From: Lachnospiraceae bacterium
Lineage (GTDB): Bacteria; Bacillota; Clostridia; Lachnospirales; Lachnospiraceae
Length of the DNA stretch: 43,301 bases
Reading direction: 5' to 3'
Assembly: GCA_016287095.1 (NCBI GenBank)
Contig: JAEEVK010000016.1
Coordinates: 1 to 43,301, forward strand
Part shown: positions 3,001 through 30,783 of the stretch, in pieces
Layout of the letters: every line of letters starts with the position of its first letter
Numbering within the stretch: the stretch's first letter is position 1
Made by a program: the position numbers and the translations under genes
Notes under the pieces: generated by a model
Told to the model about the DNA's origin: nothing
The model's database searches: none
The model's input: the letters and a program-made list of their open reading frames with translations, nothing else

Positions 3001-3306
3001 AGGGAAGAATATCATACCTACGCCGTATTCTCTTTTACCGGGCAGCTCAACACCCTGCTTCTTTAATACTTTTTTGAAAAACTTGTGAGGTATCTGTGTA
3101 AGTATACCGACGCCGTCACCTGTTTTTCCCTCAGCATCCTTACCTGCACGATGCTCAAGGTTTTCAACTATCGAAAGTGCATCAGCTACAGTTGCATGAT
3201 CAGCTTTTCCCTTGATATTTACTACTGCACCGATACCGCAATTATCATGTTCAAAATCAGGATTGTATAAACCTTTTTTATATACTTCATTTAATGTAAG
3301 TTTCAT
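1..3306 (-). CDS. gltB: Glutamate synthase (GOGAT) large subunit, 3' end cut by window
   Basis: Makes glutamate from glutamine and 2-oxoglutarate in the cytosol, with GltD supplying electrons from NADPH. The 1102 codons visible run from the start into the FMN-binding synthase domain; the rest lies beyond base 1. The N-terminal amidotransferase nucleophile is Cys23 ([10 protein letters not shown]), preceded by a short propeptide of 22 residues that is removed in this family. The amidotransferase domain (about 23-430), the central domain and the start of the synthase domain ([17 protein letters not shown], a conserved GOGAT stretch) are all present. The start at 3306 is supported by GGAAGG about 11 bases upstream and by the Cys23 position. 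It follows gltD by 42 bases, so the two are co-transcribed from the attenuated promoter near 5015-5043. The identification is very secure. Confidence 0.97.
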
Positions 3307-4830: not shown

Positions 4831-4873
4831 GTCTCTTCCTTCTTTCTATATACTTATTTATCAACTAAAAACT

Positions 4874-4912
4874 AAAAAAGGGTATCTGAAATAAATCCAG
4901 ACACCCTTGCCT
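4874..4912 (-). terminator. Attenuator element 2 and intrinsic terminator in the gltDB leader
   Basis: RNA AGGC-[AAGGGU]-GUCU (4899-4912) is the second hexaloop hairpin. Its loop bases start the terminator stem AAGGGUGUCUG...CAGAUACCCUU, which ends in six U (4874-4879), about 45 bases before the gltD start. A terminator inside the leader of a biosynthetic gene, overlapping a protein-binding-type hairpin, is the layout of an antitermination switch. Confidence 0.75.
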
Positions 4913-4988
4913 TGACGATGATGTATATTACATGTTATTACAACTTGCTAAAAACCATGATAATAGAAAAGACACCCTTGGTATAACC

Positions 4989-5006
4989 AAAGGCGCCCTT
5001 GTCTTC
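4989..5006 (-). promoter_or_regulatory. Attenuator element 1 of gltDB (ANTAR-like hexaloop hairpin)
   Basis: RNA GAAGAC-[AAGGGC]-GCCUUU: six-position stem (one A.C mismatch) with a hexaloop that has A at position 1 and G at position 4. The loop and its 3' arm are also the 5' arm of a longer hairpin ending near 4965 (GGCGCCUUUGGU pairing with ACCAAGGGUGUC), followed by UUUUCUAUU, so the two folds exclude each other. The same element occurs six more times in this window. The ANTAR assignment is inferred from loop rules, not shown. Confidence 0.6.
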
Positions 5007-5014
5007 ATTTGTGC

Positions 5015-5043
5015 ATTATAAAACTACAAAAGCGATTTGTCAA
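5015..5043 (-). promoter_or_regulatory. Consensus sigma-A promoter of gltDB
   Basis: On the minus strand TTGACA (5038-5043), a 17-base spacer and TATAAT (5015-5020) form a perfect housekeeping promoter. Transcription should begin near 5008, a few bases before the first attenuator element. A promoter this strong needs control after initiation, which fits the attenuators that follow. Confidence 0.9.
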
Positions 5044-5070
5044 GAAAAATTTTTTAATTTTTTAAATTCC

Positions 5071-6060
5071 TTATCCTATTAAGTCATTCTGGAATCTCGA
5101 AAGATGTTCAAACGGCAAGATCTGACGCCCTCTGAATAATCCGCATCCGTCATTTATCAGATGGTTACTGTATGCCTTAAACATGTTTACATCCACAGTG
5201 GACAGATCAAGCTCCTGCAGCTTTATCAGCCTTTCATAAGCTTCATCAAAGTACTTGCATTCTCCGGGACGGATAATATCTGCTCTCGTCCTGTTAAGCT
5301 CCTGGCTTTTCTCATATCCGAAATGATTTGCTTCACCTATCTCAGCGTAATCATCCATATCCTTTGTACGGAGCTGCAGTTCTGTATAACATCTGGTCAG
5401 GTTGTCATAAAATGTGATATGTAACGACCTGTATCCCGAAGGGCGCGGTGTCTGCACATAATCCCTATAATAGGAAATATTATTCTCGTTTAACCCTCCT
5501 GCATATCCTTCATATGATCCATCCGACAACTGAGGAGAAAACCCTTTTTCTTCAAGGAACTCCGGCATCTTGTTTGCTATCTCGTATAAGTATTTGAGCT
5601 CCTGTTCTTCACGGCTTTCATCCTTTTTTACATGACATTTGGGGAGTGAAAGTACAATCCTGTATGCTATCAGATCCCTAAAACAGTTCAGATTATTTTT
5701 TATTTCAGCCTCGTTCGGATATCTGCCGTTTTCCTTATAAAAATCATAGATATACTCCAGGATATAACCGTTAAACTTCTCTTCGGAGCGTATAAGCGAT
5801 TTTATCCTGCCCTTGAAAGTAAAAGCCAAGAACGGATATTTCTGAGTCATATACAGATAAAATTCCTTGATCCTCTGCGACTGTGATGACAGGAAATCAG
5901 TATGTTCCAATAGCTCTATTATCTGCATCAGGAAATTGCTGTGAGCGAGATCAATAGAATTATGTGATTCAATAGCCTCTTTCTTTAAATCCGATGAATA
6001 CTGTAAAAGGATTTTCAATACAGTATTTCCTGAAAATAAATAATCATTTAATGTTATCAT
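5071..6060 (-). CDS. RelA/SpoT-domain protein, probable alarmone synthetase
   Basis: Protein of 329 residues with a (p)ppGpp-synthetase-type nucleotidyltransferase domain. Landmarks in order are RIKSLIRSEEKFNGY (substrate-binding basic segment, about 105), FRDLIAYRIVLS (catalytic Asp and Arg), YRDYVQTPRPSGYRSLHIT and ELQLRTKDMDDYAEIGEANH (catalytic Glu and the closing motif). No HD hydrolase, TGS or ACT domain is present, so it is not a full Rel enzyme. The N-terminal 100 residues are unrecognised. I chose ATG at 6060, with AGGTG 8 bases upstream, over a TTG at 6075 that falls at the terminator U-run. It is a single-gene unit with its own promoter and attenuator, the same leader type as gltDB and amtB, so it is probably expressed with nitrogen status. 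The alarmone product itself is inferred. Confidence 0.8.
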   Translation of the reverse strand: MITLNDYLFSGNTVLKILLQYSSDLKKEAIESHNSIDLAHSNFLMQIIELLEHTDFLSSQSQRIKEFYLYMTQKYPFLAFTFKGRIKSLIRSEEKFNGYILEYIYDFYKENGRYPNEAEIKNNLNCFRDLIAYRIVLSLPKCHVKKDESREEQELKYLYEIANKMPEFLEEKGFSPQLSDGSYEGYAGGLNENNISYYRDYVQTPRPSGYRSLHITFYDNLTRCYTELQLRTKDMDDYAEIGEANHFGYEKSQELNRTRADIIRPGECKYFDEAYERLIKLQELDLSTVDVNMFKAYSNHLINDGCGLFRGRQILPFEHLSRFQNDLIG

Positions 6061-6073
6061 ATTTATCACCTGC

Positions 6074-6151
6074 AAAAAAATATACGGCGCCGAATAAATT
6101 CAGCGCCGTTGCCACAACCTTTTTATAACACATGATAAAATGGTTTGTCAA
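6074..6151 (-). promoter_or_regulatory. Promoter plus single attenuator of the RelA-like gene
   Basis: TTGACA (6146-6151), 18-base spacer, TATAAA (6122-6127), then at once the hexaloop hairpin UGGC-[AACGGC]-GCUG (6101-6114). The loop begins an 11-pair terminator stem (ACGGCGCUGAA with UUCGGCGCCGU) that ends in UAUAUUUUUUU (to 6074). The start codon follows 14 bases later. Only one hexaloop hairpin fits between the transcription start and the terminator. The promoter overlaps the 3' end of the upstream dehydrogenase gene. Confidence 0.75.
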
Positions 6152-6159
6152 TGGTTATT

Positions 6160-7311
6160 TTATCGAAAAGCTTTATTATACAGATCCAAGATATCCTGCC
6201 TTGTTGTCTGCCTGGGATTTACTGCAATATTTCCACTCTTCATGGCATCATCAGTCATAAATTCAAATAGTTCTTCCTTTACACCGACTTCCACAAGTGT
6301 ACCCGGTATATCCAGACTAAGATTTAATACCCTTATCTCCTGTGTAAGCATATGGGGTACAAAATCCTTCTTAGTTACAGGAGCTAATGATATACACCGG
6401 TATATATCATAATACTTACCCTTATCAGATAATTCGTTAAACTCTGTAACAAAAGGAAGCAATATTGCATTTGCAAGTCCGTGAGGCACATCAAAATATG
6501 CACTCACCGGATGACTCATCGCATGAACATTTCCAAGTCTTGCATGAGAAAATGCTATACCGGCATAAAGAGAACCCTGCAGCATCGCATCGGCAGCGAT
6601 TTTATTCTGACGATTGGCAACATAGGCTCTGAGATTCTTACCGATCAATTCCAGAGCTTTTAATGCCATCATATCAGAAAACGGTGAGGCCTTTAAAGAA
6701 ATATAAGACTCTATAGCATGTACAAGTGCGTCCACTCCGCAAGCCGAAGCAGTTTTAACGGGCACCGACATGATCAGCTCCGGATCAAGTATAGCACATT
6801 TGGGTAAAAGATAATTGCTTCCGACTGTAAGCTTATAATTTCTGCTGTGATCGGTAATAACAGAAAATGCTGTAACCTCTGACCCCGTTCCGGCCGTTGT
6901 AGGAATAGCTATAATTGGTATTACCGGTCCCGGTACTTTACCCACTCCTTCATAATCCGTTATAGCACCACCGTAGGTACCAAGTATTGCCACCGCTTTA
7001 GCCACATCTATCGGAGAGCCTCCGCCAAATGCGATTATCAGATCCGAGCCGCTGTCCATAAATAGTTCAGCAGCTTTGTCCACCGTATCCGTTCCCGGAT
7101 TTCCCTCGGTTTCTGTAAATATCCCGCTCTTTATACCTGCTGCCTTTAATGCATCCCTGCATTTATCAACGAGTCCAATCTTTTTCAGATGTGGTCCTGA
7201 AATAATAAATGCTTTTTTACAATCAAGTTTTTTAACATATTCCGGAAGCTTATCCAATGTACCTCTTCCAAAAACAATCTCCTGTGGAACTGAAAATGAA
7301 TATGCAGCCAT
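6160..7311 (-). CDS. Iron-containing alcohol dehydrogenase, possible 4-hydroxybutyrate dehydrogenase
   Basis: Type III (Fe-ADH) NAD(P)-dependent dehydrogenase of 383 residues. Visible are the nucleotide loop FGGGSPIDVAKA, the TTAGTGSE motif, and the metal ligands Asp/His in GVDALVHAIE and the two His of HAMSHPVSAYFDVPHG. The family reduces aldehydes or oxidises alcohols. Its place directly after a class III aminotransferase (18-base gap) and in an operon that begins with an amino acid importer suggests it reduces the aldehyde produced by that aminotransferase, for example succinate semialdehyde to 4-hydroxybutyrate. That substrate is an inference. The start is ATG 7311 with AGGTGG eight bases upstream; a GTG four codons earlier lacks that spacing. 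It is the last gene of the 11781-6160 operon. Confidence 0.85.
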   Translation of the reverse strand: MAAYSFSVPQEIVFGRGTLDKLPEYVKKLDCKKAFIISGPHLKKIGLVDKCRDALKAAGIKSGIFTETEGNPGTDTVDKAAELFMDSGSDLIIAFGGGSPIDVAKAVAILGTYGGAITDYEGVGKVPGPVIPIIAIPTTAGTGSEVTAFSVITDHSRNYKLTVGSNYLLPKCAILDPELIMSVPVKTASACGVDALVHAIESYISLKASPFSDMMALKALELIGKNLRAYVANRQNKIAADAMLQGSLYAGIAFSHARLGNVHAMSHPVSAYFDVPHGLANAILLPFVTEFNELSDKGKYYDIYRCISLAPVTKKDFVPHMLTQEIRVLNLSLDIPGTLVEVGVKEELFEFMTDDAMKSGNIAVNPRQTTRQDILDLYNKAFR

Positions 7312-7329
7312 CCCATATACCACCTGCCC

Positions 7330-8547
7330 TTACTTAAGTATAGCCTCTACTGATTCCTTAATAATATCATATGCCTCATCACAATCTTCCTCTGTTATGA
7401 TCAGTGGCGGAACCATACGTATAACATGCGCCCCTATTGCTGTCAGCAATAAATGTCTGTGCAGGCATTCATGTTTTACATCTACACTGCTAACAGCATC
7501 ATCAAATTCTACGCCAACAAGCAGTCCCTGCCCTCTTACCTCTTTTACATGAGGAAGAGTTTTCAATTTTTCCATAAAATATTTACCCTGCTTTTCAGCA
7601 TTCCCTGCCAGATCCCTGTCAAGCAGCTCACCAACCTGAGCTAATGCCGCAGCACAGCTTACAGGATGTCCGCCAAAGGTTGTACCATGTGAACCCGGAG
7701 TAAACGCCTTTGCTACCTCCGCAGTCGCACATATAGCACCTATGGGCATGCCGCCTCCCAAAGCTTTTGCCATAGAAACGATATCCGGCTTAATGCCATA
7801 ATGCATATAACTCATAATCTTTCCTGTTCTGCACCATCCGGTCTGCACTTCGTCTATTAATAGAAGCATCCCTTTCTCATCACAGAATTTACGCAGGCCG
7901 GTCATAAATTCATAAGTAGCCGGATGTACTCCGCCTTCACCCTGAACAGGTTCTATCATGATAGCGATCGTGTTTTCTGTACAGGCATCTATAAATGCCT
8001 GAAGATCATTATAAGGTGCATATGAAAAACCATAGGTCATAGGTCCGAAACCTACCTGACATCCGTTTCCGGGCTGACCTGTCGCAGACATCGCACCAAA
8101 GGTCCTGCCATGAAATCCCATTTTTGCTGTAACGATATGATATCTGTTGGGTCCATATTTCTCTATTCCGTATTTTCTTGCCATCTTGATCATGGCTTCA
8201 TTCGCTTCTGTTCCGGAGTTTTGGAAAAATATCTTATCCATTCCTATAGCGGTACATACCTTTTCTGCCAAAAGTGCCTGTGGAATGGTATAAGGATAAT
8301 TAAATGTATGCATAAGAGTTTTGGTCTGCTCAATAACAGCTTCCACTACCTTCTCATTACAGTTTCCTGCAGAATTAACTGCTATACCTGCATAAAAATC
8401 AAGATATGCTTCTCCTTCTTCATCATATATATACTGGTTTTTTGCACTTTCCGCCAGAAAATCAAATCTCTCATAGGTCTCAATCATATATTTAGAGACT
8501 TTGTCCTTAATGTCCTGTGCAGTAAGTCCTATTTCCTTCAGTTTCAT
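7330..8547 (-). CDS. Class III pyridoxal-phosphate aminotransferase (acetylornithine/GABA type)
   Basis: About 405 residues, fold type I aminotransferase of the acetylornithine/ornithine/4-aminobutyrate group. Motifs include NSGTEANEAMIKMAR (cofactor phosphate binding), GFHGRTFGA, EPVQGEGGV, LLIDEVQTGWCRTGK and the Schiff-base lysine in SMAKALGGG. It removes an omega-amino group onto 2-oxoglutarate, giving glutamate and a semialdehyde. The nearby iron dehydrogenase and the gamma-glutamyl-GABA hydrolase upstream make 4-aminobutyrate a likely substrate, but acetylornithine or another diamine cannot be excluded. No arginine-synthesis genes are nearby, which argues against argD. The start ATG 8547 follows GGGAG; an ATG at 8556 is an alternative. 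Confidence 0.87.
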   Translation of the reverse strand: MKLKEIGLTAQDIKDKVSKYMIETYERFDFLAESAKNQYIYDEEGEAYLDFYAGIAVNSAGNCNEKVVEAVIEQTKTLMHTFNYPYTIPQALLAEKVCTAIGMDKIFFQNSGTEANEAMIKMARKYGIEKYGPNRYHIVTAKMGFHGRTFGAMSATGQPGNGCQVGFGPMTYGFSYAPYNDLQAFIDACTENTIAIMIEPVQGEGGVHPATYEFMTGLRKFCDEKGMLLLIDEVQTGWCRTGKIMSYMHYGIKPDIVSMAKALGGGMPIGAICATAEVAKAFTPGSHGTTFGGHPVSCAAALAQVGELLDRDLAGNAEKQGKYFMEKLKTLPHVKEVRGQGLLVGVEFDDAVSSVDVKHECLHRHLLLTAIGAHVIRMVPPLIITEEDCDEAYDIIKESVEAILK

Positions 8548-8588
8548 AATTATCATTCTCCCTTCCACTCTATAATTATTTTCACGGC

Positions 8589-9254
8589 TTAAACATCAGC
8601 TGAGGACACTTTAATATCATCTGCTGTAATAAAGCCCTTTATCATCAGATATTGTTCTATTACCTTCACGCAATCCTTGATCCCAACCTTTTCGCTGTTA
8701 AGCGTCATATCATAATTGACCGGATTCGTCCAATAATTACCGTGAGTATAATATGCATAATAGTCTGCCCTGAACTTATCTGTCTGACTGATGGTAGCAT
8801 GTGCTACCTCCTCAGTCACTCCCATATGCTCTATAGTCCTCTGTACACAAAAAGCCCTGGGTGCCTCTATATAAACGCTTACAACATTTTGTCGGTCTCT
8901 GAGCACATAGTCTGCACATTTTCCCACTATCACACAAGATTCCTGATCTGCCAGGCTTTTTATGATCTCACATTGGTATTCAAACAATCTGTCATCAGAA
9001 ACAAATTTTTCATTTCTCGCAATATAATTTCTGGCTCTGGGAAGTCCTTTCATAAAGCTCGAAAACCCACCATTCTTCCTTACCTTTTCATTTACCTCCT
9101 GAAAAAGCTTTTCATCCAGGCCGCTCAGCTGGCTGGCCAGAGTAAGAATACGGTTCTCATAACAATGTATTCCTAAATCCTTTGCCAATATAGAAGCTAT
9201 TTCTTTGCCCCCCGATCCAAACCCCCGGGCAAAAGTAACAACAAATCTCTCCAT
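8589..9254 (-). CDS. Cytidylate-kinase-like family protein
   Basis: 221 residues matching the cytidylate-kinase-like P-loop family: N-terminal FARGFGSGGKEIASILAKDL (modified Walker A) followed by LGIHCYENRILTLAS, and the lid-region arginines near RTIEHMGVTEEVA. The true substrate of this family is generally unknown; many members sit beside transporters in Clostridia. It begins 31 bases after the ABC ATPase, with GGAGG eight bases before ATG, and lies inside the importer-aminotransferase operon. A nucleotide-dependent regulatory role is possible, but nothing in the sequence defines it. Confidence 0.75.
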   Translation of the reverse strand: MERFVVTFARGFGSGGKEIASILAKDLGIHCYENRILTLASQLSGLDEKLFQEVNEKVRKNGGFSSFMKGLPRARNYIARNEKFVSDDRLFEYQCEIIKSLADQESCVIVGKCADYVLRDRQNVVSVYIEAPRAFCVQRTIEHMGVTEEVAHATISQTDKFRADYYAYYTHGNYWTNPVNYDMTLNSEKVGIKDCVKVIEQYLMIKGFITADDIKVSSADV

Positions 9255-9284
9255 ATGTCATGCCTCCGTTCTGTATGATCGGCT

Positions 9285-10025
9285 TTATCCAGCCAGATAA
9301 CGTTTCAAGAATTCTCTGGTACGAGGATTCTTCGGATTTGTAAACAATTGTGACGGAGCCGCATCCTCAGCAACATAACCTCTGTCCATGAAAATGGTCC
9401 TGGTAGACACGTCCTTTGCAAAGGCCATTTCATGAGTCACTATTATCATGGTAAGGCCTGTTGTTGCCAGCTGCTTCATAACCTGAAGCACCTCTCCTAC
9501 CATCTCAGGATCAAGAGCAGAGGTCGGTTCATCAAACAAAAGTACTTCAGGATTCATACAGAGCGACCTTGCTATGGCTACTCTCTGTTTCTGACCGCCT
9601 GACAGCTGCGACGGTTTAGCATGTATAAAAGGAGCCATTCCTACTTCCTTCAAATGTGTGATTGCCCTGTCAAAAGCCTCTTCCTTGGAAAGATGCAAAA
9701 CCTTCCTGGTACATATCATACAATTTTTCAATACCGTCATATTGTTAAACAGATTGAATGACTGAAAAACCATACCCACCTTAGCACGATATTCATTTAT
9801 TTCACGCTGTGAATCGCGAACCTCTTTTCCATGGTATAGTATCTTGCCCGCAGTCTGACGCTCAAGTTTATTAATGCATCTGAGCAATGTGGATTTACCC
9901 GAACCTGAAGATCCGACAATGCATATTATCTCACCCGCATGTATTTCCATATCTATTTTTCTCAGCACCTCATGATTGCCGAAGGATTTGCTTAAATCCT
10001 GAATTCCGATGACAGTCTCTTTCAT
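9285..10025 (-). CDS. Polar amino acid ABC importer, ATP-binding protein
   Basis: 246-residue ATPase of the GlnQ/HisP family. Walker [11 protein letters not shown]-loop FQSFNLF, signature LSGGQKQR, Walker [13 protein letters not shown] and the H-loop THEM are all intact. It energises uptake of a polar amino acid (glutamine, glutamate, histidine, arginine or GABA-like) with the permease and binding protein just upstream. The ribosome site is GGAGG before ATG. Substrate specificity is not readable from the ATPase; the nitrogen-type attenuator ahead of the operon suggests a glutamine-class substrate. Confidence 0.93.
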
Positions 10026-10060
10026 ATAAATTCCTCCTTCGTGATTATTCCAGTGCCGTT

Positions 10061-10831
10061 TTATTCATTGTCCATATACTCAACAGCCAGTGTATAATCG
10101 TTCTTTCCTTTCATACGCTTTTCAATCAGCTTGAATAATTTATTAAATACAAAACACAGAACGAAATAAATAGCCGCTATAACAAGATAACTTTCAAAAT
10201 ACTTATAATAATTTCCACCGACTGTTTTGGCAGCCATAAACAGTTCCTGTACTGCTATTACATTTAATACTGAAGTCATTTTCAGATTTGTCAGGAACGT
10301 ATTTGCCATTTCAGGTATGATATTTTTAAATGCCTGTGGAAGTACTATATACAGCATTGTTTTCATAGGTGACATACCCATTGCCCAAGCACCTTCGCGC
10401 TGTCCCTGATCTATGGATCCGATGCCGCCTCTGACGGTTTCCGCCATATATGCCCCGGTATTTAAAACAGTTACTATAATACCGGCAACTATAGGAGTCA
10501 TATTTACTCCCATCTGTCTTATTCCGTAATATATTATCATCGCCTGAACGATCATCGGGGTATCACGGAAAATCTCTACATATACGGAAGCAATAATCTT
10601 CAGTGTTTTAATCAATATTTTCTTTATAAAGTTATCACCCTGATTAATCTTCAGATCCTGAATGATTCCAACCACGTATCCTAAAACAAATCCCAGGAGT
10701 GTACCCAGCACCGCTATATAAAGCGTAAGCCAGGTACCTTCCAGGAACATATTCAAATACTTATCGGTCAGATAGACCATCCATTCAAGGGAATTCTCAG
10801 GATTTTCAATCGCCCATATGTTAAATCCCAT
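10061..10831 (-). CDS. Polar amino acid ABC importer, permease
   Basis: 256-residue inner-membrane permease of the HisM/GlnP type. It has the family segment [20 protein letters not shown] (first helix, about 35-55), [18 protein letters not shown], and the ATPase-contact EAA loop [20 protein letters not shown] with its conserved glycine. About five membrane helices are expected. It probably works as a homodimer with the ATPase encoded 36 bases downstream and the lipoprotein encoded 30 bases upstream. Confidence 0.92.
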
Positions 10832-10860
10832 ATTCTATCCCACCTTCAATAATCTTAAAC

Positions 10861-11781
10861 TTAGTTTGCTGCAGGCTGCTGTCCGATCACCTTATTCATA
10901 AGTTCATCCATTTTTGCCTTATCATTCCATCCTATAGCTGTCATAGCACCCTGAAGCTTATCTCTTAATGCTGTATCACTCTTTCGTGTTGCGATGCATA
11001 CATTTACCATTTCTTCATCGCCCTTAAATGTATCATCTGCTGCAAAGGTAATGATCTTTAAATCCTTGTTTGTGAGTAATGCTGACTCGGCAGTAGGAAG
11101 ATCGACGATACATACATCAGCTACACCGTTTGAAACAGCCATAAAACACTCTGAAGTTGTTTCATAATTGCTGCCTGTGATGCCACCCTCAATCTGATCC
11201 AAAAGAGGAATCCAGCCTGTACCAAGCTGTGTAGTCACTTTACATCCTTTTCCTGCAAGCTCCGAAAGTCCCTTAACATCTGCAAAAGGTCCGTCGGCTT
11301 TGACTACAACACAGTTATCACGATAGTAATAAGGATCTGTGAACGAATAAGCCATTTCTCTTTCTGCTGTACGTCCCATGCCGGCTATAATACAATCATA
11401 ATCTCCCGCATCCATTGAAATACCGATTGATGACCATTCAACTTTGTGTATCTCCAGATCCATGCCTAATTGATCTGCGAGTTTCTGTGCTACGGCTACA
11501 TCGTAACCATATGCATAAAATTGTGAATCATAAATCTTTACTGCCTTGCTTCCGTCAGGTGTTGTATCCGCATCCTGAGTCCAGTTAAAAGGTGCATATG
11601 CACATTCCATACCAACTCTCAGTACCTCTTTTTTTGTTTCATCGGCCTTAGTCTCATTTGTACTCTGCTGTCCCTGTGTCGGAGTTTCCGTTTTATCCGA
11701 TCCTCCTGAACTGCATCCTGCCATCATCGCCATCGTAAGCAGGCTCACCATCAATGTTACAAACCATCTTCTCTTTTTCAT
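10861..11781 (-). CDS. Polar amino acid ABC importer, substrate-binding lipoprotein
   Basis: 306 residues with an N-terminal lipoprotein signal (KKRR, hydrophobic stretch, lipobox MMAGC at about 22), a Gly/Ser/Thr-rich linker to about 50, then a periplasmic-binding-protein family 3 fold starting LRVGMECAYAPFNW. It captures the amino acid outside the membrane and hands it to the permease. The first half-domain contains YDVAVAQKLADQLG, and DCIIAGMGRT is the usual ligand-contact region; the expected Arg that holds the amino acid carboxylate lies in GMGRT. It is the first gene of a six-gene operon and follows an attenuator. The ribosome site AGGAGGG is strong. Confidence 0.92.
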   Translation of the reverse strand: MKKRRWFVTLMVSLLTMAMMAGCSSGGSDKTETPTQGQQSTNETKADETKKEVLRVGMECAYAPFNWTQDADTTPDGSKAVKIYDSQFYAYGYDVAVAQKLADQLGMDLEIHKVEWSSIGISMDAGDYDCIIAGMGRTAEREMAYSFTDPYYYRDNCVVVKADGPFADVKGLSELAGKGCKVTTQLGTGWIPLLDQIEGGITGSNYETTSECFMAVSNGVADVCIVDLPTAESALLTNKDLKIITFAADDTFKGDEEMVNVCIATRKSDTALRDKLQGAMTAIGWNDKAKMDELMNKVIGQQPAAN

Positions 11782-11824
11782 AAGTCCCTCCTTCTGCTAT
11801 TTAGTAAATAGCAATTAGCTTAAT

Positions 11825-11906
11825 ACAAAAGGCGCCGGTTGAAACTGTTGTTTCCCCAGCGCCTTTGCTTGTGCTACATAATAAGGACTTTTTCCCTGTT
11901 TTGCAA
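11825..11906 (-). promoter_or_regulatory. Promoter plus single attenuator of the amino acid importer operon
   Basis: Promoter TTGCAA (11901-11906), 17 bases, TATTAT (11878-11883). Then comes the hexaloop hairpin AGC-[AAAGGC]-GCU (11858-11869). Its loop starts a long hairpin (AAAGGCGC pairing with GGCGCCUUUU, with inner GAAAC/GUUUC) that ends in UUUUGUAUU (to about 11825). The binding-protein start lies about 45 bases downstream. It is the same element as in the gltDB, amtB, nadE and RelA-like leaders. Confidence 0.7.
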
Positions 11907-11940
11907 CTTGCAATGTGCACAATCTTATTCAACATTATGC

Positions 11941-13137
11941 CTAAACGAACATCCACTGTTTTACTAAAATACAATTTATCAGATCCAGATATTCCACATA
12001 ATCCGTCATTTCCATATCAAGCAATTCCTCAATTTTTTTCAGACGATACAGCAGCGAATTTCTATGTATAAACAAAGCCTCAGCAGTCTTTACGGTATTA
12101 AAGCCATTCATATAATATGTCAGCAGAGTCTCCTTAAGAAAGGTACCGTTTGCATGATCATATTCATCCAGTTTACTTAGTTTGTTATTGCAATATTCAA
12201 GTATTTCACCCTGATTATTACTATGGAACATATATTTATATATCCCCATCGAACTTGCACTTAAAACCTTTTTATGCGAAGGATTGGGCAATTGATCCTT
12301 TTTAGGTATCAGGTTTTTTGCCTCCTGATAGCTCTGTCCGAATTTAGAAGGATCGGTATACGGTGCTCCTAAAATACAAGAGCTTTGGATAACTCCCTTA
12401 AACTGAGGATTATCATCCAGCTTATGAAGCAGTTTTTCCAATTCTTTTTCAATACTTTTGTCCTTTCTTGCCTCAAAAAGCAATACAAATTTGTTAAGAA
12501 AACGCATAAACATGGGATGCCCTTCCATGCTGATTATCTCCTGATTCAGACAATTTGCATAGTATTCATAGATATGCTCATCCTGTTCAAGGTTTACTCC
12601 GTATGTCCTATCAACTGCAATAATACCGACTCTGTAAGGCTTACTGAAATCAATGCCAAACTGGCCTGATATTTTCTCAACATAACGCTCATTCACACTG
12701 TAACCAAAAAGCAGATTATATAGATAATCTCCGGTTCTCTTGTTATGTATATCAGATTCCATGATCAGGCTTCCGACGCTTTGGGAGATATCGACAAAAG
12801 ATGCTCCTTCCCACCTTATATAAAATAACGGGAGACGGAGTTCTTCTGCTCTTTCGATGATTCTTTCCGGTATAGCTTCCCTGTCATTTTCAACAGAAAG
12901 ACCAAGTCCTGAGATCCCCAGTTCATTTAATTCTTCCATTGTTCTTTCTACTTCATCAAAATCAAACCTTACATAGTCTATCACGATCAGAGCAAAATTT
13001 CCCCGATTCATATGATCCTCATAAGGTCTGGTCTGTACGAGGTAAACCCATGAAACGACTCTGCCCAGCCCCGATTCTCCGGCTATGAGTTCCATTCCAT
13101 CCAATTTCAGATTATTTATATCCCTGCAGGTAACCAT
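11941..13137 (-). CDS. PucR-family transcriptional regulator
   Basis: About 398 residues. An N-terminal PucR sensory domain (VTCRDINNLKLDG, then AGESGLGR at about 20, which is typical of the family) is followed by a GGDEF-like middle region without catalytic motifs and a C-terminal PucR helix-turn-helix (NGFNTVKTAEALFIHRNSLL) for DNA binding. Relatives control purine, allantoin, GABA or proline use. It overlaps or abuts puuD, so both are probably co-transcribed, and it lies just upstream of the importer operon, its likely target. ATG 13137 fits the usual PucR start and has GGAG about 11 bases upstream; a TTG at 13161 would overlap the puuD stop codon and has no clear ribosome site. Confidence 0.88.
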   Translation of the reverse strand: MVTCRDINNLKLDGMELIAGESGLGRVVSWVYLVQTRPYEDHMNRGNFALIVIDYVRFDFDEVERTMEELNELGISGLGLSVENDREAIPERIIERAEELRLPLFYIRWEGASFVDISQSVGSLIMESDIHNKRTGDYLYNLLFGYSVNERYVEKISGQFGIDFSKPYRVGIIAVDRTYGVNLEQDEHIYEYYANCLNQEIISMEGHPMFMRFLNKFVLLFEARKDKSIEKELEKLLHKLDDNPQFKGVIQSSCILGAPYTDPSKFGQSYQEAKNLIPKKDQLPNPSHKKVLSASSMGIYKYMFHSNNQGEILEYCNNKLSKLDEYDHANGTFLKETLLTYYMNGFNTVKTAEALFIHRNSLLYRLKKIEELLDMEMTDYVEYLDLINCILVKQWMFV

Positions 13138-13157
13138 AAATATACTGTCTCCATTTT

Positions 13158-13865
13158 TCAATCCATCATAGCAGTTATAAAAGCCTTGAATATCTTTTTA
13201 CTGTTATCGTCTGTAATATATGAAAACTCAGGATGCCACTGTACACCCCAAAGGAAACGATGGCCTGGCATATAAAGAGCTTCTGTCAGCCCGTCCTCCG
13301 ATGTTGCCATTGCCTTTAATCCAGGAGCTATCTGCTTTACAGCCTGATGATGATAACTGTTAACATGTAAGGTATCAGTATTTAGACATTTATGTAATGG
13401 TGAATCCACATTGATCGACACAACATGAACAGGTTTATTGTAAGGTGGATTTTGATGATGTTCTACATTTGACGGATGCTGCAGAGGGATATCCTGGTAT
13501 AGTGTTCCTCCGAGTGCAGCATTTATAAACTGTATTCCCCTACATATGCCAAGTACAGGTTTATCATTCTCTATAGCGTTTTTCAGCATAAATTGTTCCA
13601 TTTTATCACGTCTTCTATTGGAACTTACCTTACCTTCTAAAGGCTTCTCACCATATATATCCGGTGAAACATCATGGCCTCCGGTAAACAAAAAACCATC
13701 ACACAGTTCTGCTGCCTGCTCCAGGTCACCCTTGTCTTCATTAAGCGGTAACATAATAGGAATACCTCCGTTAACGGTTATTCCATCAAAATATCCCGGA
13801 AGCATCCATAAGCTTTCTTTTTCATCATCCCATAGAGGCATCACGCCAACGATCGGTTTTCTCAT
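13158..13865 (-). CDS. puuD: Gamma-glutamyl-gamma-aminobutyrate hydrolase family (peptidase C26)
   Basis: 235 residues, class I glutamine-amidotransferase-like hydrolase. The nucleophile elbow is GICRGIQFIN (Cys near 100) and the catalytic His is in WGVQWHPEF. The best-known member cleaves gamma-glutamyl-GABA to glutamate and GABA in putrescine breakdown; others act on related gamma-glutamyl amides. The rest of the Puu pathway (ligase, oxidase, dehydrogenase) is not in the window. I chose ATG 13865 (GGAG seven bases upstream, protein opening RKPIVGVMP as in relatives) over ATG 13877 or GTG 13901. The region upstream is the IS110-side intergenic DNA, so its native promoter may have been displaced. 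Confidence 0.85.
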   Translation of the reverse strand: MRKPIVGVMPLWDDEKESLWMLPGYFDGITVNGGIPIMLPLNEDKGDLEQAAELCDGFLFTGGHDVSPDIYGEKPLEGKVSSNRRRDKMEQFMLKNAIENDKPVLGICRGIQFINAALGGTLYQDIPLQHPSNVEHHQNPPYNKPVHVVSINVDSPLHKCLNTDTLHVNSYHHQAVKQIAPGLKAMATSEDGLTEALYMPGHRFLWGVQWHPEFSYITDDNSKKIFKAFITAMMD

Positions 13866-14007
13866 ACTAATCTCCATTCCGCCGCCTTCAGCTGGCGGCA
13901 CAAATAGTGATGAAAGTGTTCCAATTCTCTACACTGTGTTTTAAAATAGCTTGTAAGAAGCTACACTACAAAGCACGGGAGGAGGAGTTGTAACAACTTT
14001 CTTCGTT
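13866..14007. other. Intergenic DNA between puuD and the IS element, hairpin-rich
   Basis: No gene seen. It contains three short inverted repeats: GCCGCC/GGCGGC (13881-13899), TAGCTT/AAGCTA (13947-13963) and AGTTGT-A-ACAACT (13986-13998). It may be the original puuD promoter region or part of the left end of the IS110 element, where a guide (bridge) RNA could be encoded. Confidence 0.4.
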
Positions 14008-15486
14008 TTAGACAGCATACTAATCAGTGTAAGTTCTGCCTTTTCAAGCACAAATAAGTGGTATTACGAATCCGTACACTAAGAATTGTTTAAGCACCTT
14101 AGTTTAATTGTGTGGCAGTTCAGTCAATGGCTTCTTATCATATACGAAAGGAGTCTGACTATGAAAGTTACTTATCAAACCTGTTGTGGTGTCGATGTTC
14201 ACAAATCTTTTCTCGTTGCCACAATTGTAAAAACTACTGGTGGTATTGAGCCTTCTTATCAAAAGAAACGCTTTTCTACCTTTAACAATTCAATTCTTGA
14301 ATTCAAGCAATGGCTTCTCGACAATGACTGCCATGATGTCTGTATGGAATCCACAGGTAAATACTGGGTTCCTGTCTTTAATCTTCTGGAAGATGAAATC
14401 AATGTTGTCATCGCTAATCCTAAATGGGTAAAAGCAGTGAAAGGCAACAAAGATGATACCAAAGATTCTAAATGGATTGGAGATTTGTTCCGTCTTGGAC
14501 TTGTCAAAGGCAGTTATATTCCTTGTAAGAAAGTCCGTATTCTCAGAGAATACACTCGCTATAGTTACAAGCTTGTTTCCTGCCGTTCAAGTGAAAAGAA
14601 TAGATATCAGAATGCTCTTACTGTTTGTAATGTTGCATTAGATTCTGTTGTTTCCGATATCTTTGGGAAGTCATCCACATCCATTATCGACTATCTGCTT
14701 GAACAATCGGGTACATCCATTAACCACGAAGAAATCGCATCTAAACTTCTAAGGAGCCTCAAATCCAAAGAAGATGCTGTTATAGAATCCGTCGAAGGAT
14801 ATCAGATGACTGATGCCCAAAAATATCGCATGCGCCTTGTCCGCGCACATATGGATTATATCACAGCTGAAATCAATGATGTTGATAAAATGATTGAAAA
14901 TATGATTTCTTCTAATCCTGATTTTGAAAATGCTGTCCAGTTTCTCTGTACCATTCCGGGTGTAAAACGTGATAGTGCAATCACTATCATCTCCGAAATT
15001 GGTACCGATATGTCTCAGTTCTCGAGTTCCAAACGCTTATGTTGCTGGGCTGGTCTAACCCCCGGCAGCAATGAATCCGCTGGTAAGAAGAAATCTGTTC
15101 GGATTACACGTGCCGGTGTCTACCTCAAACCTGCATTAGTACAGTGTGCTCATGCAGCCGTAAAATCTGACAAATCTCCTTACTACAAAAAGAAATATGA
15201 ATCTCTTGTTAAACGCCGTGGCAAGAAAAGAGCCATTATCGCTATTGCCCGTATGATTCTTACCGCCATCTACCAGATGCTGTCTACCGGTGAGCAGTGG
15301 AATCCGAGCGATCTTTACAAGATTGATATGCCTGAAGCTCTTGTTGAAAAACAAAAGGCAAAAGCTATCAAGCAAGCCAAGAAACTATTGCAACGAGAGG
15401 GATTACTTCCTCCTGATGAACCATTAGCTTCTTGATCTATTTTCCTAACTCTATAACACTTCAAAAAGTTGCCTACCTTAGACAGC
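14008..15486 (+). mobile_element. IS110-family insertion sequence, boundaries tentative
   Basis: One DEDD transposase gene with about 145 bases of left and 50 bases of right non-coding DNA. The limits are set by a 9-base direct repeat, TTAGACAGC, at 14008-14016 and 15478-15486, giving an element of about 1.47 kb, normal for the family. A competing boundary is a 12-base inverted pair, TCAGTGTAAGTT (14024-14035) and AACTTACACTGA (15668-15679), which would suit the IS1111 subgroup with subterminal inverted repeats and give about 1.67 kb. It lies between puuD and amtB, both on the opposite strand. Confidence 0.5.
14161..15435 (+). CDS. IS110-family transposase (DEDD)
   Basis: 424-residue recombinase of the IS110 family. 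The N-terminal RuvC-like domain carries the DEDD residues: Asp in CGVDVHK (about 12), Glu in VCMESTGKYW, and the Asp pair in KGNKDDTKDSKWIGD. The C-terminal Tnp domain begins IPGVKRDSAITIISEIG and contains GLTPGSNESAGKKKSVRIT with the catalytic serine. The family moves by a circular intermediate, and some members are guided by a bridge RNA made from the non-coding ends. AAGGAG eight bases before ATG 14161 supports this start; an in-frame ATG at 14086 would add 25 residues unlike the family. The gene is intact. Confidence 0.93.
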   Translation: MKVTYQTCCGVDVHKSFLVATIVKTTGGIEPSYQKKRFSTFNNSILEFKQWLLDNDCHDVCMESTGKYWVPVFNLLEDEINVVIANPKWVKAVKGNKDDTKDSKWIGDLFRLGLVKGSYIPCKKVRILREYTRYSYKLVSCRSSEKNRYQNALTVCNVALDSVVSDIFGKSSTSIIDYLLEQSGTSINHEEIASKLLRSLKSKEDAVIESVEGYQMTDAQKYRMRLVRAHMDYITAEINDVDKMIENMISSNPDFENAVQFLCTIPGVKRDSAITIISEIGTDMSQFSSSKRLCCWAGLTPGSNESAGKKKSVRITRAGVYLKPALVQCAHAAVKSDKSPYYKKKYESLVKRRGKKRAIIAIARMILTAIYQMLSTGEQWNPSDLYKIDMPEALVEKQKAKAIKQAKKLLQREGLLPPDEPLAS

Positions 15487-15694
15487 TTATTTAAGTGCGT
15501 CCATTTATGGTTTTCCTCTACTTTCTTTCACACTATCCTCCGATATTCAAAGTCAAGGTCACCTTGAAAACGCTTCCAGCGTTTTCCCATTATGGTATAC
15601 CGCTTTTTACTCTGTCAAATGCTGCCATATTCTGCTCCTTTCGACATAAATATAATGTTTGCAAACCAACTTACACTGAGGGCGTTCACTTATC
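15487..15694. other. Intergenic DNA right of the IS, with two adjacent perfect hairpins
   Basis: No gene seen. Two back-to-back inverted repeats occur: TCAAGGTCACCTTGA (15553-15567) and AAAACGCT-TCC-AGCGTTTT (15567-15585). They may belong to an IS1111-type right end (guide RNA region) or be remnants of chromosomal leader DNA. The plus strand repeat AACTTACACTGA at 15668 mirrors a sequence left of the transposase. Confidence 0.4.
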
Positions 15695-15736
15695 AAAAAG
15701 CTCAGAATCCAATGGCAGAAGATTCTGAGCTTTTTT
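15695..15736 (-). terminator. Bidirectional intrinsic terminator after amtB
   Basis: AAAAAGCTCAGAATC and GATTCTGAGCTTTTTT form a 15-pair stem with an 11-base loop. It ends in T runs on both strands, 33 bases past the amtB stop, and also faces transcripts leaving the IS element. Confidence 0.85.
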
Positions 15737-15768
15737 CTATATTATTACGAAGGATTTTAGCTTATTCT

Positions 15769-17526
15769 TTATTCAACATCCTGTAATGCGTCATAACCTT
15801 CTTCACCGGTTCTGACTTTTACTACGTTCTCAACATCGTATACGAAAATCTTACCATCGCCGATATGTCCGGTGTAAAGAACCTTCTTTGCAGTTTCGAT
15901 AACTGTTCTGACAGGTACCTTGCTGACTACGATATCAACCTGTACCTTGGGAAGCAGTGTAGCCTCAACCTGTACTCCACGGTAGTATTCAGGCTTGCCC
16001 TTCTGTAAGCCGCAACCTAATACGTGGGATACCGTCATACCGGTGATACCTACATTCATAAGGGCTGACTTCAGGGACTCGAAACGCGATTCCTTACATA
16101 CAATCTCAATCTTGGTAAACTTGTGGTCGCCTTCTTCAAACGAAGGAACTTTCTTAACCTGTACAGCTTCAGCTACAGGAACATCGCCGTCTACAACTAC
16201 GGGTGCGTTACCTTCTTCAATATATTCAGGGGTCATAGCAAATCCTGCATAAGCTGAAGGAAGACCATGCTCAGTAGCATCAAGACCTGTCATTTCTTCT
16301 TCACGGGTAACACGAAGTCCGATAACCTTCTTTATGATTGTAAATGTAATAGTAATGGTAACTGCTGTCCAGCAGGCAACTGCTGCAAAACCTGTAAGCT
16401 GGATACCAAGAAGCTTAAATCCGCCGCCATAGAAAAGGCCTTCCATCATAACACCATCAGCGTCAGCAATTGAGTAACCGGGTGCTGAAGATGTAGCAAA
16501 CAAACCAACTGCGATTGTACCCCAGATACCGTTTAAGCAATGAACTGCTACAGCACCGACAGGGTCATCAATATGAAGCTTGTGATCAAGTAACCAAACA
16601 CCAAATACAACAAGTAAACCACTAACGGTACCAACCATGATAGCACCGAAGCAATCAGTTACATCACAGGGAGCTGTAATACCTACAAGACCTGCAAGTG
16701 AAGCGTTCAGACACATTGAAACATCGGGCTTACCATATTTGATCCATGTAAAGATCATACAAACAACTGTTGCAACAGCGGGAGCTACGGTAGTAGTAAG
16801 GAAAATAGAACCTAACTGCTCAAGTGATGTAGCTGCGGCACCGTTAAATCCGTACCAGCCAAACCAAAGAATGAATACACCAAGTGCACCGATACAGATA
16901 TTGTGGCCGGGGAATGCGTTAACCTTTGTGATCTTGCCCTTTGCATCCTTAACGAACTTACCGATACGGGGACCTTCCAACTTAGCACCGATGAGTGCGG
17001 AGATACCACCAACCATATGAATAGCTGTTGAACCTGCGAAATCATGGAATCCCATTCCGCTTAACCAGCCGCCGCCCCAGATCCAGTGAGCCTCGATGGG
17101 GTAAATGAGTGCTGAAATCACACCTGAATAAATACAATATGATAAGAACTTTGTTCTTTCTGCCATGGCACCTGATACGATAGTAGCTGTGGTAGCACAG
17201 AATACCAGGTTGAATACGAAGTTAGAAAATTCAAAGTTTTCATAACTGGTAAAAAGATCAAAACCGGGCTTTCCGATAAGACCTAATGCATCCTCACCTA
17301 ACAACAAACTGAATCCGATAAGGATAAATACTACTGTACCGATACAGAAATCCATCAGGTTCTTCATGATGATATTACCTGTATTCTTTGCTCTGGTAAA
17401 GCCTGCCTCTACCATTGCGAAACCTGCCTGCATCCAGAAAACCAATGCTGCACCTATCAAAAACCAAACCGCGAACACTTCGCCTTGAGTTGCCTCTGAA
17501 ATTAAACTTCTGATTTCTTCACTCAT
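15769..17526 (-). CDS. amtB: Ammonium channel fused to a C-terminal PII domain
   Basis: 585 residues. The first about 410 form an Amt/Rh channel: outer Phe region FCATTATIVSGAMAERT, pore histidines in EAHWIWGGGW and AVHCLNGIWGT, and the Amt signature DDPVGA. A loop leads into residues about 467-580, a complete PII (GlnB/GlnK) domain with T-loop GKPEYYRGVQVE, including the Tyr position that can be uridylylated in other PII proteins, and the C-terminal signature TGHIGDGKIFVYDVE. In most bacteria GlnK is a separate protein that plugs AmtB; here plug and pore are one chain, three plugs per trimer. ATG 17526 has GGAGG nine bases upstream and is preferred over TTG 17532. It is transcribed alone from an attenuated promoter, divergent from nadE. 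Confidence 0.93.
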   Translation of the reverse strand: MSEEIRSLISEATQGEVFAVWFLIGAALVFWMQAGFAMVEAGFTRAKNTGNIIMKNLMDFCIGTVVFILIGFSLLLGEDALGLIGKPGFDLFTSYENFEFSNFVFNLVFCATTATIVSGAMAERTKFLSYCIYSGVISALIYPIEAHWIWGGGWLSGMGFHDFAGSTAIHMVGGISALIGAKLEGPRIGKFVKDAKGKITKVNAFPGHNICIGALGVFILWFGWYGFNGAAATSLEQLGSIFLTTTVAPAVATVVCMIFTWIKYGKPDVSMCLNASLAGLVGITAPCDVTDCFGAIMVGTVSGLLVVFGVWLLDHKLHIDDPVGAVAVHCLNGIWGTIAVGLFATSSAPGYSIADADGVMMEGLFYGGGFKLLGIQLTGFAAVACWTAVTITITFTIIKKVIGLRVTREEEMTGLDATEHGLPSAYAGFAMTPEYIEEGNAPVVVDGDVPVAEAVQVKKVPSFEEGDHKFTKIEIVCKESRFESLKSALMNVGITGMTVSHVLGCGLQKGKPEYYRGVQVEATLLPKVQVDIVVSKVPVRTVIETAKKVLYTGHIGDGKIFVYDVENVVKVRTGEEGYDALQDVE

Positions 17527-17535
17527 AACCAAATT

Positions 17536-17609
17536 CCTCCCAATTATCTTTTTTCACTTCTAAACGCTGGGAGACGACCGGCCGAATCAGTCTCAAATTT
17601 TTAGAAGTG
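17536..17609 (-). promoter_or_regulatory. Structured amtB leader that can hide or expose the ribosome site
   Basis: In the amtB RNA a 10-pair stem (CACUUCUAAA with UUUAGAAGUG, 17555-17609) encloses GAGAC/GUCUC. The segment CUCCCA (17568-17573) can instead pair with UGGGAG (17537-17542), which contains the Shine-Dalgarno sequence. The inner stem and the ribosome-site pairing share bases, so only one can form. This could add translational control after the attenuators. Confidence 0.4.
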
Positions 17610-17647
17610 CTTCATTTCTCTTTTAATTTTCACTTTCCGGCAAAGAG

Positions 17648-17687
17648 AAGGGCGTCCAAACTTATTAGTTCAGACGCCCTTGCCCTG
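17648..17687 (-). promoter_or_regulatory. Attenuator element 2 of amtB with overlapping hairpin
   Basis: RNA CAGGGC-[AAGGGC]-GUCUG (17671-17687; an A bulge in the 5' arm), loop A1/G4. The loop starts the stem AAGGGCGUC pairing with GACGCCCUU (17648-17681), with inner GAACU/AGUUU pairing. The tract after it (CUCUUUG) is a weak U-run, so termination here may be partial or need a pause. Confidence 0.55.
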
Positions 17688-17714
17688 CCATACGTTGATA
17701 AATGAAGTATATAA

Positions 17715-17758
17715 AAACAAATCGGCGCCTCTGGATAACCAAAGGCGCCCTTGTCTTT
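17715..17758 (-). promoter_or_regulatory. Attenuator element 1 of amtB with overlapping hairpin
   Basis: RNA AAAGAC-[AAGGGC]-GCCUUU (17741-17758), nearly identical to the first gltDB element, including the A.C mismatch below the closing pair. It overlaps the stem GGCGCCUUUGG with CCAGAGGCGCC (17724-17749), followed by GAUUUGUUUUU. This is one of two tandem copies in this leader. Confidence 0.6.
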
Positions 17759-17767
17759 ATGTGCGAG

Positions 17768-17796
17768 ATTATAACTCGATGATTTTCATTTGTCAA
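17768..17796 (-). promoter_or_regulatory. Consensus sigma-A promoter of amtB
   Basis: TTGACA (17791-17796), 17-base spacer, TATAAT (17768-17773): a perfect match, as at gltDB. Transcription should start near 17761, a few bases before the first attenuator. The about 90 bases between this promoter and that of nadE are AT-rich, with no gene. Confidence 0.9.
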
Positions 17797-17889
17797 GCAG
17801 TTTTTTTAAAATTTTTATATTTTTTTTAGATTTGTTGAAAATAATTAAAATTTATTATAAATATAGATGGTGTTTTTGTTGATTTTTTA

Positions 17890-17966
17890 TTGACATTTTC
17901 CTTAAATATATGGTATATAAAAGTAAAAGCAACGGGGCTGGATTTATCTGCGCCGTTATTTTTTTA
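17890..17966 (+). promoter_or_regulatory. Promoter plus single attenuator of nadE
   Basis: TTGACA (17890-17895), 18 bases, TATATA (17914-17919). Then the hexaloop hairpin AGC-[AACGGG]-GCU (17928-17939), whose loop starts the terminator stem AACGG...CCGUU, ends in UUAUUUUUUU (to about 17965), 19 bases before the start codon. It is the same element as in the minus-strand leaders, here on the plus strand, so the family is tied to the genes and not to one repeat tract. Confidence 0.72.
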
Positions 17967-17984
17967 AGGGATTCGGAGGAAATT

Positions 17985-30726: not shown

Positions 30727-30738
30727 ACCTTTCTTAAC

Positions 30739-30774
30739 AAAAAAATAATGCCGATGTAAAACACCGGCACTATT
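30739..30774 (-). terminator. Terminator after the LURP-one-related gene
   Basis: Minus strand: AGTGCCGGTG pairs with ATCGGCATT, followed by ATTTTTTT, ten bases past the stop at 30784. Confidence 0.8.
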
Positions 30775-30783
30775 ATCAAAATC

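Follow-up and report, generated by a model that had tools for sequence, protein, structure and literature searches.

Control of nitrogen regulons by ANTAR proteins and the A1/G4 hexaloop are already known. Passages of Ramesh 2012 (PMC3369931) report ANTAR control of nitrogen genes, including those for PII, ammonium transporters and glutamate synthase, and NitR of Clostridium saccharobutylicum, an earlier case, is said to induce glutamine synthetase/glutamate synthase (GS/GOGAT) genes when nitrogen is limiting (PMC6316151). In the eutP leader of Enterococcus faecalis, according to the same passages of PMC3369931, deletion of the P1 hairpin lowered inducibility, altering the linker length brought drastic reductions and full binding required both stem-loops, the linkers between eut hexaloops being 5-12 nt long. 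Walshe 2022 (PMC8934654), in the passages cited here, concludes that termination is prevented only if the ANTAR dimer contacts the hexaloops one after the other; it also redefined the minimal ANTAR site as one hexaloop, anticipated single sites in settings where no moving polymerase sets a time limit, and asked for studies of the role of single-hexaloop sites. Here we analyzed a 43,301-nt stretch from a Lachnospiraceae bacterium (GCA_016287095.1, contig JAEEVK010000016.1, positions 1-43,301, forward strand; “the window”), in which a first-pass annotation had read seven hexaloop units on five leaders as one ANTAR antitermination regulon, noting correctly that ANTAR control of nitrogen genes exists. 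Our analysis of the sequence supports this reading: the units probably are ANTAR-dependent single-hexaloop transcription attenuators that form one nitrogen/glutamine regulon.

All seven units can be read in the window, where five leaders carry them (gltD-1/-2 and amt-1/-2 being tandem pairs). The host genome (assembly 85% complete, 217 contigs) holds at least nine leaders and at least 12 hexaloop units; the unit-bearing leaders outside the window are those of glnA, the type III glutamine synthetase gene (GSIII, two units), gdhA and pyrG. A covariance model (R1) was built from eight units, six in the window and two from another contig, with the importer unit held out. The units and promoters of the window are:

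4995-5043, minus strand: gltD leader, promoter (-35 TTGACA 5043-5038, -10 TATAAT 5020-5015) and first hexaloop AAGGGC (5000-4995), by direct reading
4962-5008, minus strand: gltD unit 1, hexaloop overlapping its own terminator-like hairpin (R1 E 3.3e-8, training set; fold -22.2 kcal/mol, z -5.75)
4872-4916, minus strand: gltD unit 2, hexaloop AAGGGU (4908-4903) and terminator (R1 E 2e-8, training set; z -5.56)
6151-6146 (-35) and 6127-6122 (-10), minus strand: relA-like leader promoter, by direct reading
6077-6118, minus strand: relA-like leader unit, hexaloop AACGGC (6110-6105) and terminator (R1 E 7.3e-7, training set; z -3.64)
11822-11874, minus strand: amino-acid importer leader unit, hexaloop AAAGGC (11866-11861) and terminator (R1 E 0.0011, filters off, held out; z -5.31)
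17796-17791 (-35) and 17773-17768 (-10), minus strand: amtB-PII leader promoter, by direct reading
17715-17760, minus strand: amtB-PII unit 1, hexaloop AAGGGC (17752-17747) and terminator (R1 E 1.2e-8, training set; z -7.02)
17642-17689, minus strand: amtB-PII unit 2, hexaloop AAGGGC (17681-17676) and terminator (R1 E 3.1e-9, training set; z -6.83)
17890-17895 (-35) and 17914-17919 (-10), plus strand: nadE leader promoter, by direct reading
17923-17963, plus strand: nadE unit, hexaloop AACGGG (17931-17936) and weaker terminator (R1 E 1.8e-6, training set; z -1.97)

A1, A2, G4 and G5 were unchanged across the seven window loops, as first noticed. In a pooled set of 85 units (82 model matches from 40 sources plus three spotted by eye), A1 was kept in 84/85, A2 in 85/85, G4 in 85/85, G5 in 79/85 and the C-G closing pair in 85/85, figures that are inflated since 82 of the 85 were picked by a model favouring such loops. 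Of the five near-consensus promoters claimed, that of the importer is, on our reading, weaker than the others. Overlap of the hexaloop with an intrinsic terminator, the loop forming part of its 5' arm, is predicted: strongly for six window units (z -3.6 to -7.0), and only marginally for nadE, for which 9/200 shuffles were as good; a terminator-like hairpin can be folded in every case as claimed, six of the seven being strong. Moreover, a strict scan (C-AANGNN-G followed by a hairpin and a T tail) returned six matches in the window (a count, without places) vs. a mean of 0.27 and a maximum of 2 in 60 dinucleotide shuffles. The prospect that terminators near promoters hold AANGG by chance is thus negligible: although the motif is short and plain terminators give weak matches (for example, window 30738-30782, a leader match before a GGDEF gene which we rejected as a plain terminator without hexaloop, and to which R1 gives the same E, 0.0011, as to the held-out importer unit), chance would have to account for the excess over shuffles, for cross-genus conservation with compensatory change, and for a downstream gene that falls in a nitrogen/glutamine reference set in 83/85 pooled units.

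A search of relatives by covariance model, proposed in the first-pass annotation, found the unit before nitrogen genes, and the covariation anticipated there is present in the terminator helix. In an alignment of 107 matches (98 distinct rows, some reverse-strand matches included), 93.9% of the cells of this helix were paired in the distinct rows and 13/14 pairs changed on both sides, with a covariation score of 0.637 vs. 0.255 in shuffles (0/500 shuffles reached the observed value). Furthermore, in all 83 distinct units (83/83) the 60 nt from the loop onward folded more stably than the hexaloop hairpin (median -21.7 vs. -4.5 kcal/mol), and the default state was therefore taken as off. The first alignments (labelled A1-A3) were left out of the model because their 3' arms failed to line up.

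The pooled set splits into 62 units that lead their transcript and 23 that lie behind another unit. A sigma-A-type promoter scoring at least 9/12 preceded 61/62 leading units, compared with a rate of 5.7% at 3000 random positions; for 52 of these 61, the loop began 14-16 nt after the -10 hexamer. A promoter of this kind was found for only 1/23 second units. Transcription generally starts about 7 nt after the -10 hexamer. If it does so here, the hairpin would begin at +1 to +3, and therefore no space would be left for a P1. Irrespective of where transcription starts, P1-like hexaloops within 26 nt upstream were found in 3/62 leading and 0/23 second units, the background being 4.35% of 2000 positions; the same test did detect the canonical dual site of a eut operon leader in the same order, its positive control. 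That site (L201 9218, minus strand) precedes an operon encoding EutA, a EutP-like protein, a microcompartment shell protein, a receiver-ANTAR protein with an intact receiver, and a kinase.

These data bear on whether the units could be ordinary dual-hexaloop ANTAR sites, with a divergent P1 or with the first tandem unit serving as P1. The gltD, amtB and GSIII leaders do have two hexaloops, and a relative's eut operon has the canonical form; we nonetheless consider this quite unlikely, as the usual 14-16 nt leave no room for a P1, P1-like hairpins occur only at background, and each tandem hexaloop has its own terminator, with loop starts 65-92 nt apart rather than the 5-12 nt linkers given in passages of PMC3369931. 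In addition, the relA-like, importer, nadE, glnA, gdhA and pyrG leaders of the host genome each showed only a single unit. The units carry the single A1/G4 hexaloop of the minimal site of Walshe 2022, which an ANTAR dimer may bind. As read here, a terminator-linked site with one hexaloop per terminator is a new architecture, because the units are single and terminator-linked, while known terminator-linked sites pair two nearby hexaloops; the suggestion of a new variant of the RNA site thus stands, in the form of one hexaloop without P1. Among the matches listed in an open-licence literature search, there was no recognisable report of single-hexaloop terminator-linked ANTAR sites, nor of these elements in Lachnospiraceae.

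The genes behind the window units are:

3349-4830, minus strand: gltD, glutamate synthase small subunit (TIGR01317, 628 bits)
1-3306, minus strand: gltB, behind gltD and running off the window, recognised from its similarity to a glutamate synthase
5071-6075, minus strand: RelA/SpoT-like protein, 334 aa (PF04607, E 3e-12)
9285-11781, minus strand: amino-acid ABC importer (binding protein 10861-11781, permease 10061-10831, ATPase 9285-10025)
15769-17532, minus strand: Amt-PII fusion protein, 587 aa (PF00909 and PF00543)
17985-19901, plus strand: nadE, glutamine-dependent NAD+ synthase (NF002730, 864.8 bits; start 17985 by our reading, 17910 in the list of open reading frames)

The gltDB label is thus correct, and the best match of NadE is the long glutamine-dependent form. 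The amtB-PII pair proved to be one fused protein with both domains rather than two genes, and the RelA-like gene matches part of its family only, the protein covering just positions 53-112 of the 113-position PF04607 profile. Two further features of the neighbourhood were recorded. An IS110-family transposase (14086-15435, plus strand; PF01548 and PF02371) sits between regulon gene clusters, and beside the importer (11941-13901, minus strand) are a PucR-type regulator and a peptidase C26/glutamine amidotransferase-like protein, with no unit seen upstream.

Outside the window, the same theme continues. On contig 52, gltB, asnB and the type III glutamine synthetase gene adjoin glnA and an ANTAR gene; the glnA-ANTAR operon has a unit of its own (TTGACA, an A-T-rich -10, GAGC-AAAGGC-GUUC and a terminator), the GSIII leader has two, and one at the contig end precedes the glutamate dehydrogenase gene gdhA. 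On contig 30 (L090 4479-8837, plus strand), a unit precedes genes for CTP synthase, a PurF-like protein and a carbamoyl-phosphate synthase small chain (CarA-like), all three glutamine amidotransferases. A whole-genome R1 search returned nine units at E <= 2.4e-4; a simple pattern search of the genome was set aside as too strict (five matches, three of them known units). Across the pooled set, the targets were GSIII (26), GltD (18), Amt-PII (17), GdhA (7), AsnB (4) and PurF (4), followed by RelA-like (2), NadE (2), PyrG (1), importer (1) and GlnA (1); the remaining 2/85 units lie before GMP synthase-like (guaA-like) genes (L083 6072 and L087 18955, plus strand; the identity was checked for L083). 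When an RNA model alone was used to search across the order, 35/40 units in the best loci preceded the same target classes, among them four units before a class-II glutamine amidotransferase-like gene heading glnA-ANTAR loci; this is the fairer figure because the pooled loci were partly chosen by ANTAR neighbourhood. The predicted targets assimilate ammonium or use glutamine, with importers and the relA-like gene in addition.

The ANTAR regulator which the first-pass annotation expected elsewhere in the genome, near glnA, was found directly behind glnA and is the only ANTAR match of the genome (PF03861, 56.7 bits vs. a cut-off of 27.3, residues 137-188). A profile search reported no receiver family in this protein at E <= 0.001; the predicted fold comprises a receiver-like domain, a long helix and ANTAR, and is closest to RNA-bound EutV (6ww6, TM 0.77). 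At the phosphoacceptor position, N, S or V was present in 20/20 glnA-type relatives, compared with D in two aligned true receivers, and the acidic pair plus phosphoacceptor Asp of an EutV-type phospho-activated regulator is absent. The EutV RNA-contact positions K149, E160 and M172 (taken from published passages, with a numbering shift of two that we deduced) are kept in 20/20 relatives. The missing phosphoacceptor and the ever-present GlnA next door suggest that the ANTAR protein is controlled by a partner, perhaps glutamine synthetase, and a glutamine-sensitive GlnA-ANTAR contact would be the simplest sensor hypothesis. Among the best 80 of 583 ANTAR relatives in named genomes, GlnA lay directly upstream in 76/80 loci, and the other four start within 95 nt of the locus edge. 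The nearest of these 80 are from metagenome-assembled genomes of rumen Lachnospiraceae (96% and 84% identity), and the set includes Mediterraneibacter, Merdimmobilis and Eubacterium sp. 14-2.

In these 80 named loci there were 67 strict matches, 31 of them without a good promoter; some of the latter are second tandem units, and others look like chance within coding sequence. A strict unit immediately upstream of glnA was present in only 6/71 assessable leaders. We did not count this as a failure, as many loci have an open reading frame ending just before glnA, and units occur on a divergent gene or at a greater distance upstream. In many relatives, the hexaloop GAATACTGNG recurs before glnA; it was rejected, since on our reading it appears to lie inside the 3' end of an upstream open reading frame.

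Presence of the units correlates with that of the ANTAR gene. At E <= 0.1, R1 matches were found in 24/24 same-genus genomes and 29/41 genomes overall, and ANTAR in 20/24 and 29/41, respectively. In an order-wide sample of 196 genomes (the host genome being excluded from the table), a second model, R2, had matches in 60/129 ANTAR-bearing vs. 7/66 ANTAR-less genomes (p 2e-7, kinship ignored). Could the attenuators instead be read by a riboswitch or another RNA-binding protein, or be constitutive terminators? The seven ANTAR-less order genomes with matches at the cut-off used, together with 4/24 same-genus genomes that have units but no ANTAR match (three of them 81-83% complete, one 93%), speak for it, as does the fact that ANTAR binding of the loops is a prediction. 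It is very unlikely all the same: an A1/G4 hexaloop overlapping a terminator is the hallmark of ANTAR sites, a unit lies in the ANTAR operon itself, and presence correlates. Nor does any Rfam family match the units (0 matches in the window at the gathering score; within window 4300-18300 and L002 6200-14619, no covariance-model match at E <= 5 lay over a unit), and we rejected a known Rfam riboswitch or leader as their identity.

Several observations weigh against reading the units as one ANTAR regulon of single-hexaloop attenuators: i) The short stem around the loop, claimed for every unit, is generally present but imperfect in gltD-1 (loop 5000-4995, minus strand) and amt-1 (17752-17747, minus strand), where an A.C mismatch lies beside the closing pair. 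This GAC-loop-GCC form recurs in 18/62 leading pooled units, where the closing pair alone precedes the mismatch, although the pooled set as a whole was counted as A1/G4 hexaloops on stems of at least three pairs; its recurrence looks as if a weaker antiterminator were selected; ii) The small stem gained modestly in the larger set (86.9% vs. 81.4% paired), where 4/6 pairs changed on both sides, a value reached by 183/500 shuffles, although its score and paired percentage exceeded all 500; in the eight-unit training set it was no better than shuffles (107 to 233/500 reached the observed values). Moreover, small-stem and terminator evidence are not independent because the terminator guided the fitting of the alignment and one strand is common to both helices; iii) The pooled units come mostly from contigs selected for an ANTAR gene or R1 matches, and transcription start sites are predicted from promoters throughout; iv) The whole-genome R1 search missed the importer, glnA and second GSIII units, all seen by eye; v) In the order-wide sample, a promoter scoring at least 9 lay at 9-21 nt in 22/37 leading units and was missing from 15/37, and 69/129 ANTAR-bearing genomes had no R2 match (30 candidates per genome scored); vi) In the regulator, EutV Tyr164, which stacks on G4, is His in 20/20 relatives, as in AmiR, and the host protein has I and E where EutV has Arg142 and Arg168.

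We infer that the glnA-linked ANTAR protein binds these loops and that binding antiterminates. A housekeeping-type promoter would start an RNA whose first ~20 nt fold into an AANGGN hexaloop hairpin with a C-G closing pair. An intrinsic terminator of greater stability would use the loop and 3' side of this small hairpin as its 5' arm, so that transcription would by default stop after ~50 nt. A NitR-like ANTAR dimer would capture the first hexaloop as the RNA leaves the polymerase, hold the small hairpin and block the terminator, allowing read-through into gltDB, the relA-like gene, the importer, amtB-PII, nadE, glnA-ANTAR, GSIII, gdhA and pyrG-purF-carA. Two units in series (gltD, amtB, GSIII) would multiply the effect and tighten the off state, and the circuit would be autoregulatory because the glnA-ANTAR leader bears a unit. 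More speculatively, the degenerate receiver may be under the control of a partner, most likely the co-encoded glutamine synthetase.

The sign of the response is a separate matter, as polarity cannot be read from sequence. Ammonium transporters and glutamine synthetase usually go up on nitrogen limitation. The same parts might work with the opposite sign or another signal, the ANTAR protein being active at plentiful glutamine or ammonium or responding to a non-nitrogen cue, and the glutamine-needing users in the regulon (pyrG, purF, asnB, guaA and nadE) would fit that; it seems unlikely, if worth keeping in mind, given the usual behaviour of transporters and synthetase and the description of NitR of C. 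saccharobutylicum, in passages of PMC6316151, as inducing GS/GOGAT genes on limitation. Because NitR is described that way, we take low nitrogen or low glutamine as the probable activating state of the ANTAR regulon.

The widest form of the proposal, a widespread class of 5'-terminal single hexaloops that work without the recruiting P1 required by EutV, joined to a phosphorylation-independent ANTAR protein gated by its co-encoded glutamine synthetase, is tentative, and we regard it as rather doubtful. If true, an ANTAR dimer would capture one nascent loop within ~25 nt before the terminator forms, and glutamine synthetase would be the glutamine sensor of an RNA-based nitrogen regulon in Lachnospiraceae and related Clostridia. 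The regulon offers dozens of natural terminator-linked single-hexaloop candidates with sharp geometry, and the single-hexaloop question could therefore be tested in vitro at once. It may also serve as a master circuit of nitrogen control in gut and rumen Clostridia, one that extends unusually far to enzymes using glutamine and for whose sensor a simple hypothesis is at hand.

Compared with the described systems, the units share with EutV sites, as far as the cited passages describe them, the A1/G4 hexaloop on a short stem, the conserved closing pair, the overlap with the 5' arm of a terminator and the ANTAR protein. They differ in having one 5'-end hexaloop per terminator with neither P1 nor linker, in an invariant A2 and nearly invariant G5, and in a regulator without a phosphorylation site. 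Nitrogen themes are shared with the Ramesh 2012 genome survey, from the part cited here. NitR, in the passages cited, is likewise an ANTAR protein described as antiterminator of GS/GOGAT genes (PMC6316151, PMC4676874) and is encoded with glutamine synthetase genes, as is the GlnA-adjoining ANTAR protein here; relative to that description, the present units add amidotransferase, importer and relA-like genes. AmiR of the Pseudomonas AmiR-AmiC pair (PDB 1qo0) is described in part of PMC3369936 as an ANTAR protein with a non-phosphorylated pseudo-receiver. The pair was solved as a complex, and AmiR shares the His at the G4-stacking position; its partner is an amide receptor, whereas the neighbour here is glutamine synthetase, by which control is proposed. 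GlnR is, beside TnrA, under glutamine synthetase control. TnrA of Bacillus, as described in passages of PMC6316151, would share the logic of glutamine synthetase serving as glutamine sensor for a nitrogen regulator; TnrA, however, is a DNA-binding regulator, whereas the glutamine synthetase contact hypothesized here would be with an ANTAR protein.

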